In this document: piece by piece, positions 15,158 to 20,212 of the stretch | Layout of the letters: every line of letters begins with the position of its first letter | Position numbering within the stretch: position 1 is the first letter of the stretch | Assembly: GCA_017608345.1 (NCBI GenBank) | Contig: JAFCGA010000006.1 | Location: 1 to 58,456 of the forward strand | From: Candidatus Pacearchaeota archaeon | GTDB taxonomy: Archaea > Nanobdellota > Nanobdellia > UBA10117 > JAFCGA01 | Length of the DNA: 58,456 bases | Direction of reading: 5' to 3' | Notes under the pieces: generated by a model | Database searches by the model: none | Seen by the model: the letters and a program-made list of their open reading frames with translations, nothing else | What the model was told of the DNA's origin: nothing | Program-made: the position numbers and the translations under genes

Positions 15158-15317
15158 GGGTCTGGTGAGATTCGAACTCACGACCCTTCGCTATCTCCAC
15201 TATCTTTTTTCCGCCAGCGCTTTTCTAAGGGGCGGTTAGGAGGCGAATGCTCTATCCAGGTTACTCGTCTATTCCTTCTTTTCCAAAGCGAAAGAAAAGG
15301 CTCTGAGCTACAGACCC
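15158..15317 (-). tRNA. tRNA-Arg(CCU) with D-loop and anticodon-loop introns
   Basis: Exons join to a 74-nt tRNA. The acceptor is GGGTCTG/CAGACCC, the D-arm GCTC...GAGC and the anticodon arm TTCGC-CTCCTAA-GCGAA (CCU at 15240-15238). The T-arm is GTGAG-TTCGAAT-CTCAC. Intron 1 (15302-15261, 42 nt) interrupts the D-loop between CAG and CCTGG. Intron 2 (15236-15193, 44 nt) is at the canonical 37/38 site and contains a GCCC/GGC-type hairpin. No CCA is encoded. The 3' end is four bases from the stop of the upstream convergent gene. Exon arithmetic (74+42+44) equals the gene length exactly. Confidence 0.92.
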
Positions 15318-15361
15318 AATATAAAAAGCCGTATTCTGGTTTAAAAGATTTGTTATGGAAA

Positions 15362-19388: not shown

Positions 19389-19498
19389 GCCTCCGTAGCT
19401 CAGTCTGGTAGAGCGACAACCTCGTATCGTAGAACAAGTTCCGCGGAACAGACTGCGTCAGTAAGTTGTAGGCCGTGGGTTCGAATCCCATCGGGGGC
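19389..19498 (+). tRNA. tRNA-Thr(CGU) with intron
   Basis: Exons give a 73-nt tRNA: GCCTCCG/CGGGGGC acceptor, GCTC...GAGC D-arm, ACAAC-CTCGTAA-GTTGT anticodon arm (CGU at 19423-19425), and GTGGG-TTCGAAT-CCCAT T-arm. A 37-nt intron (19427-19463) sits at the canonical 37/38 site and contains a GTTCC-GCG-GGAAC hairpin. A TATA-like TATATTTAAAAAG at 19354-19366 is 25 bases upstream and lies right beside the divergent MGMT-like gene. The 3' end abuts the stop codon of the convergent PAC2 gene. Confidence 0.92.
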
Positions 19499-20212
19499 TT
19501 ATCCCAAATAACTAATCTCTTTTTTCTCTTTCTCTTTAACCGCAGCAGCTCCTTTTTGCATAAGATCTTTTAACTTATTCTCGAAATTAACAGCTTGCTT
19601 CAACAATGGAGCATATGGTACTTTCAGACCTAAATAAGCATCCAAAGTTTTTATTATTCCGGCAGCTGCGGTGCTATCAGGCAATTTTGAATGAGCTTCA
19701 GCAAAGATGAAAGAAGTCTTTATATTCTTCGGAGCGTTTAGCATCAACGCACCGCTAATTCCCATAATAATACCTTCCTTGAGAGGTTTTAACTTAATTT
19801 TAGAAAATTTATTCATAGCAGCGGAGTTATTAGTCTTAAAATAAATACTTGAAGTAGTATTCATAACTGGAGAACCGACACCTTCTAGAGAAATGATCTC
19901 TTTTACTTTCAAACCGCGAGCGATTTTCAATAGCGCATCAGCAATATCCCATTCAAAGCCTTTTACGCTAGAAATTGCGTGAAATATTATTAAATTGTGC
20001 TTTTTTACGTAGAAGATTTCTAATGCTCGGCGTGTTCGACCTTCGTGGACTGCTGCCATTGGCGGTGCCTGTTTATTATGCAAATATCCGATTGGTTTAG
20101 CATCCAAATGATTAATTAAAAATTCAGTAGCAATTGTACCAACAAAACCGAAACCTGGAAAACCTTCGACAATTGTAGTATTCAAAGGTTTTTCTTTCAG
20201 AACTATTTCCAT
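19499..20212 (-). CDS. PAC2 family protein (proteasome assembly chaperone-like)
   Basis: This 237-aa protein has the PAC2 signature: EGFPGFGFVGTIATEFLI at the N-terminus, QAPPMAAVHEGR, SVKGFEWDIADALL and GISGALML. Archaeal PAC2 members such as PbaA/PbaB bind proteasome-like assemblies, and the GFPG loop is the family mark. The C-terminal tail is Lys/Glu rich. It is monocistronic, with a TATA-like TTATATAA near 20232. Confidence 0.87.
   Translation of the reverse strand: MEIVLKEKPLNTTIVEGFPGFGFVGTIATEFLINHLDAKPIGYLHNKQAPPMAAVHEGRTRRALEIFYVKKHNLIIFHAISSVKGFEWDIADALLKIARGLKVKEIISLEGVGSPVMNTTSSIYFKTNNSAAMNKFSKIKLKPLKEGIIMGISGALMLNAPKNIKTSFIFAEAHSKLPDSTAAAGIIKTLDAYLGLKVPYAPLLKQAVNFENKLKDLMQKGAAAVKEKEKKEISYLG

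Follow-up and report, generated by a model that had tools for sequence, protein, structure and literature searches.

A tRNA-Arg(CCU) gene with D-loop and anticodon-loop introns in an archaeal draft genome with one detected α-type splicing endonuclease gene

How can a tRNA gene that is interrupted in both the D-loop and the anticodon loop yield a mature tRNA, and which endonuclease would cut its transcript? These questions are raised by a 160-nt tRNA-Arg(CCU) gene on the minus strand (15317→15158) of the 58,456-nt stretch of DNA analyzed here (the window), which belongs to a 1.05-Mb draft genome, 88% complete, with Candidatus Woesearchaeota as order-level relative. The gene matches RF00005 over the full length of the model, two inserts included, and scores 44.6 bits against a cut-off of 29. 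The minimum free energy fold of the spliced 74-mer is a cloverleaf with all stems intact, called tRNA-Arg(cct) by ARAGORN; the gene itself was missed by plain ARAGORN and by an Rfam scan of the whole window. A sequence-only reading had proposed a tRNA-Arg(CCU) with an intron in each of these loops, and RF00005, ARAGORN and the intronless orthologues all bear it out.

The Arg(CCU) pattern was matched in 32 of the 56 genomes searched, some matches not being tRNAs, and intronless orthologues in related genomes set the intron borders independently of any splice motif. The D-loop of these orthologues is 10 nt long and reads AG[CT][TCA]TGGATA (L080-L082, L085-L086, L091-L094, L097); their anticodon loop is CTCCTAA. 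Deleting 15302-15261 and 15236-15193 leaves the D-loop AGCCTGGATA and the anticodon loop CTCCTAA, that is, a standard tRNA with the loop layout of the intronless orthologues (Table 1). The 42-nt and 44-nt introns (the latter at 37/38) and the 74-nt cloverleaf of the sequence-only reading were exact to the base, and its view of the D-loop site (15/16) as non-canonical holds at the borders fixed in this way. The D-stem/anticodon pattern had a single match in the source genome, so that no alternative Arg(CCU) copy, which would have told against the proposal, is seen in a genome that is ~88% complete and from which a second such gene could be missing.

Table 1. Features of the tRNA-Arg(CCU) locus (positions in the window)
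Feature	Position	Strand	Basis
Pre-tRNA-Arg(CCU), two introns	15158..15317	-	RF00005; ARAGORN; cloverleaf minimum free energy fold of spliced product
Exon 1, positions 1-15, GGGTCTGTAGCTCAG	15303..15317	-	Intronless orthologues
Intron 1, 42 nt, D-loop 15/16, bulges AG^A and AA^C	15261..15302	-	Central helix; absent from intronless orthologues
D-intron central helix, 5' strand GCTC (also D-stem 5' strand)	15305..15308	-	
D-intron central helix, 3' strand GAGT, within intron	15263..15266	-	
Exon 2, positions 16-37, anticodon CCT at 15238-15240	15237..15260	-	Sequence; orthologues
Intron 2, 44 nt, anticodon loop 37/38, bulges TA^A and AT^A, hBH form	15193..15236	-	Helices
Anticodon-intron central helix, 5' strand CTCC	15239..15242	-	
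Anticodon-intron central helix, 3' strand GGAG	15195..15198	-	
34-nt repeat block GCCCCTTAGAAAAGCGCTGGCGGAAAAAAGATAG in intron 2	15200..15233	-	Sequence similarity to other copies
Exon 3, position 38 to acceptor-stem end: T-arm and 3' acceptor strand; CCA not encoded	15158..15192	-	
Putative TATA-like TTTTAAA, ~23-29 nt upstream of mature 5' end	15340..15346	-	Read from sequence

Both introns have the core of the bulge-helix-bulge (BHB) motif, a 4-bp central helix flanked by a 3-nt bulge at each splice site. At the fixed borders all four central pairs are present in each case, GCTC/GAGT in the D intron and CTCC/GGAG in the anticodon intron, for which we estimate chances of ~1/64 and ~1/128, respectively. 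The D intron has an exon helix h of 0 bp and a flush intron helix h' of 1 bp, making its helices weaker than those of most D-loop introns in the same genome. The anticodon intron has an h of 5 bp and a flush h' of 0, and its CCGCC/GGCGG stem is offset by 12 nt. Neither intron has the strict BHB form with both flanking helices, and both are relaxed forms. Four other introns of the source genome also lie at 15/16 and follow the same splice rule.

Interrupted genes are frequent in this genome. The tRNA inventory comes from a heuristic parser applied to targeted stretches, which under-counts tRNAs with T-loop introns; it found ~20 tRNAs, many of them interrupted. Thirteen D-loop introns are listed, at 15/16, 17/18, 19/20, 20/21 and 21/22, and 12 of them have all four central-helix pairs against 0.29 expected on intron shuffling (a 13-nt insert in L003 fits 37/38 poorly and was excluded from the counts). 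Because some cuts had been picked with the motif in view, the test was rerun with free choice of cut and a loose D-loop consensus for nine tRNAs; the result was 9/9 against 2.5 expected, and multiplying the nine null rates, as if independent, gives ~5e-6. Leu(CAA) carries two D-loop introns plus one at 37/38, and in Arg(UCG) (L014, G000:C1 ~15119) the D-loop is interrupted twice, by introns of 21 and 19 nt. The 16S rRNA gene (L012, G000:C2:84301-87361) has three BHB-like inserts of ~92, ~65 and ~45 nt, whose removal by the BHB rule restores conserved 16S sequence. Within the window, tRNA-Thr(CGU) (19389-19499) has a 37-nt intron at 37/38 and is overlapped by a predicted reverse-strand frame.

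The 37/38 intron of Arg(CCU) and the 21/22 D-loop intron of Leu(CAA) are identical at 33 of 34 nt. The 34-nt block GCCCCTTAGAAAAGCGCTGGCGGAAAAAAGATAG recurs in the D-loop introns of Leu(CAA) and Leu(UAG), and its hairpin core occurs at non-tRNA sites as well. A stretch of ~50 nt can likewise be aligned between the D intron of Arg(UCU) and an intron of the 16S gene; the 92-nt 16S insert resembles this D intron. The exact 15-mer AAGCGCTGGCGGAAA is present in 10 of 378 genomes of the class, at 31 places compared with one for the reversed control; in G377 most copies are in tRNA T-loops. Repeat copies outside tRNA genes occur in G009, in G045 and at one place in the source genome (C6:45386). Four non-tRNA copies lie between direct repeats of 24-41 nt (L148, L152 and L158 in G009, L156 in the source genome, G000), and most of the non-tRNA copies examined have no such flanks. 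The recurrence of the 34-nt block, together with the related repeat outside tRNA genes, suggests that the introns spread by copying, which is known in principle from Thermoproteales (PMC4090602). To judge by sequence, this fits a family of related introns copied among tRNA and 16S rRNA genes; the direction and mechanism of the spread we infer.

Several further features of the repeats and introns were recorded. In G377 the hairpin element lies in the apparent T-loops of several different tRNAs (L180, L184, L188, L191, L193, L195), and at L176 (G377:C3:17350) a short run of tandem CGGCTGGCGGAAAA units comes after it. Three tandem copies with 68-nt spacing occur at L163 (G045:C1:799980-800130). 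At L156 the duplicated stretch can be read on the reverse strand as the C-terminus MAKDFMEISI of a frame. The Arg(CCU) 37/38 introns of G037, G027, G047 and G054 (L087-L090) are ~65-75 nt long and resemble C/D-box sRNAs, with GTGATGA, CTGA, TGATGA and CTGA as C/D-like boxes in L087. A tail GATAGCTNAGCGTTGGTTGC shared by Leu and Met D introns was considered as a copied D-arm and rejected, its GGTTGC being the 3' strand of h'. A scan of the window for Y-tract/R-tract/R-tract arrangements gave one match, compared with one to seven on shuffling, and thus no enrichment there.

A profile search of the source genome detected one PF01974 gene (E 1.4e-28), here called EndA, on contig C6 (L016 1057-1785), and an RtcB gene is also present (E 4e-160). 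EndA has 243 aa and one PF01974 domain, and is of the single-unit α type; the predicted monomer comprises ~65 low-confidence, Lys-rich N-terminal residues followed by an α-subunit fold of ~178 aa. It does not have the ε2 architecture of three fused units (~390 aa). The closest solved structure to the model is the α4 enzyme of Methanocaldococcus jannaschii (PDB 1a79; TM 0.88 normalized to the target), the best phmmer match is the Nanoarchaeum equitans α subunit (PDB 3iey_A), and the nearest named record is from Candidatus Woesearchaeota archaeon SI048_bin60. The Tyr-His-Lys triad and a Trp in the C-terminal region are invariant in the alignment, and the acidic loop before this Trp is mostly conserved. 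EndA therefore has the sequence features of α4 enzymes: a single α gene, catalytic Tyr/His/Lys and the acidic loop, which is the tetramer contact in α4 endonucleases (PMC6379350). Substrate contacts are made by Arg/Trp in (αβ)2 and ε2 types and by two Arg in α4 types (PMC6379350); judged on its residues, EndA is mixed in this respect.

Beside the active site, the EndA proteins of the order have two or three extra residues (HG, HGV, HGT etc.) followed by Lys/Arg, at the site of the Crenarchaea-specific loop, and those of G002 and G007 have ~7 extra residues there relative to the class. The alignment place is that of the Crenarchaea and ARMAN loops and a Lys is present, but the insertion adds 2-3 residues rather than 15-18 or 11. 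The short basic insertion in this order is perhaps a minimal analogue of the Crenarchaea-specific loop. It does not appear to be a requirement: G025, G052 and G045 have no loop insertion, the loop in G025 and G052 being as short as that of M. jannaschii, yet Arg(CCU) introns lie in the D-, anticodon- and T-loops in G025 and in the anticodon- and T-loops in G052. On the same grounds we dropped the idea that loop length and intron position are strictly linked: G025 and G052 have D- or T-loop introns without the insertion.

Taken together, we put at about 78% the probability that this is a functional tRNA-Arg(CCU) gene with two protein-spliced BHB introns, most likely cut by an α-only, homo-oligomeric EndA, and belonging to an intron family that spread by copying. 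In such a mechanism, a tetranucleotide in the 3' part of each intron would pair with exon sequence close upstream of the 5' cut (GCTC; CTCC), and the resulting 4-bp helix would have a 3-nt bulge on either side. Within each bulge the endonuclease would cut between the second and third bases, and RtcB would then join the exons. Once intron 1 is removed, GCTC could form the D-stem with GAGC. The enzyme would most likely be a homo-oligomer of the single α-type EndA that acts on relaxed motifs without a β subunit, perhaps helped by the short basic insertion beside its active site. Because α4 enzymes are said to cut canonical BHB motifs only (PMC4033280, PMC6379350), activity of an α-only enzyme on these introns would be at odds with in vitro results from other lineages.

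The introns could be as described and the enzyme nonetheless heterotetrameric, its β subunit being too divergent for PF01974 or encoded in the missing part of the genome. The characterized broad-specificity endonucleases are (αβ)2 or ε2 (PMC6379350), the Trp in the C-terminal region of EndA is the residue reported for these types, and a draft at 88% leaves room for a missing β gene. We regard a heterotetramer as unlikely, however, since no second PF01974 match, and no separate β-subunit gene as in (αβ)2, was found at E≤10 in this 88%-complete draft. Moreover, PF01974 matches occur in 53 of 56 related genomes of the class, nearly all with exactly one, several of these genomes being ≥95% complete. 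The search can detect a second copy where one exists, as shown by two neighbouring EndA-like matches in each of G023 (C1:350522-351216) and G051 (C4:96955-97658), which belong to one family of the class and are possibly an α/β pair. Between the last strands, EndA shares a conserved acidic loop with M. jannaschii α4, which also argues against a heterotetramer. The sequence-only reading had expected an ε2- or heterotetramer-like endonuclease with relaxed BHB substrates; the relaxed motifs are there, but the enzyme form does not follow, given a single-unit α subunit and no β match.

Doubts about the gene itself carry far less weight. Two insertions, a weak D-loop motif and the failure of plain gene finders could mark a decaying, silent gene, tolerated because another tRNA reads AGG codons, but this is very improbable: the stems of the spliced product are all intact, the locus is the sole Arg(CCU) match in the genome, many other tRNAs of the source genome are interrupted likewise, and several Arg(CCU) orthologues also have introns, up to three. 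That the D-loop insert is retained, or removed by another route, gains something from its having a central helix with next to no flanking pairs (0 bp in h, 1 bp in flush h'). Such an outcome seems equally remote, because the motif falls exactly on comparatively fixed borders, the other 15/16 introns obey the same rule, and EndA and RtcB genes are both present.

Beyond the copying that forms part of our preferred reading, the hairpin element may move by itself. More tentatively, and in our judgement doubtfully, a short dispersed hairpin (core CAGCCCTTT-loop-AAAGCGCTGGCGGAAA and its cousins, in which a pyrimidine tract is accompanied by its purine complement and by another copy of the purine tract) would itself be mobile and make BHB introns on landing in tRNA or rRNA genes. 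It would then be the archaeal equivalent of the introner elements of eukaryotes, and the relaxed specificity of an α-only endonuclease would explain why it is tolerated.

Non-canonical tRNA introns of archaea are generally held to have co-evolved with loop-bearing (αβ)2 or ε2 endonucleases (PMC4033280, PMC12397907). In the present small-genome archaeal lineage, a single α-type enzyme appears to coexist with tRNA and rRNA genes that are heavily interrupted. Whether an α-only enzyme suffices is open to direct in vitro test with one small protein, and the graded EndA loop lengths in the order could reveal the origin of broad specificity. Recent intron copies, some outside tRNA genes, might show how introns spread, a mechanism called unknown for Thermoproteales (PMC4090602).

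Thermoproteales such as Pyrobaculum carry as many as three BHB introns in one tRNA, in canonical as well as non-canonical positions (PMC8450103, PMC4090602, PMC4033280). They resemble the present case in having multiple introns per tRNA and similar introns in different tRNAs, which are read there as intron transposition; near-identical introns at different sites of different tRNAs are also what the Arg(CCU)/Leu(CAA) pair (33/34 nt) presents. They differ in belonging to another phylum and in having (αβ)2 enzymes with the Crenarchaea-specific loop rather than one α-type gene, whereas here related sequence extends to 16S introns and, in relatives, to sites other than tRNA genes. ARMAN-2 (Micrarchaeum; PMC12397907) likewise has a small genome, non-canonical introns in its tRNAs and relaxed motifs, but its endonuclease is an ε2 three-unit fusion of ~390 aa rather than a single α unit, and its 11-residue ARMAN-specific loop is absent from EndA. 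M. jannaschii α4 (PDB 1a79) shares the one-gene, one-unit organization, the best-matching fold, the acidic loop and the triad; its reported specificity is narrow, whereas the genome here has many non-canonical introns, and EndA has Trp for Tyr in the C-terminal region and three extra loop residues. The N. equitans α subunit (3iey_A) shares HSKW and the C-terminal WKKP and has a broad reported specificity, but it works as (αβ)2 with NEQ261, a β partner with no counterpart found here. We found no paper on heavy intron disruption with an α-only enzyme in a search that missed most subscription journals. Each element of the locus is of a known kind, be it BHB introns, D-loop sites or multiple introns; what is unusual is heavy disruption together with an apparently α-only enzyme.
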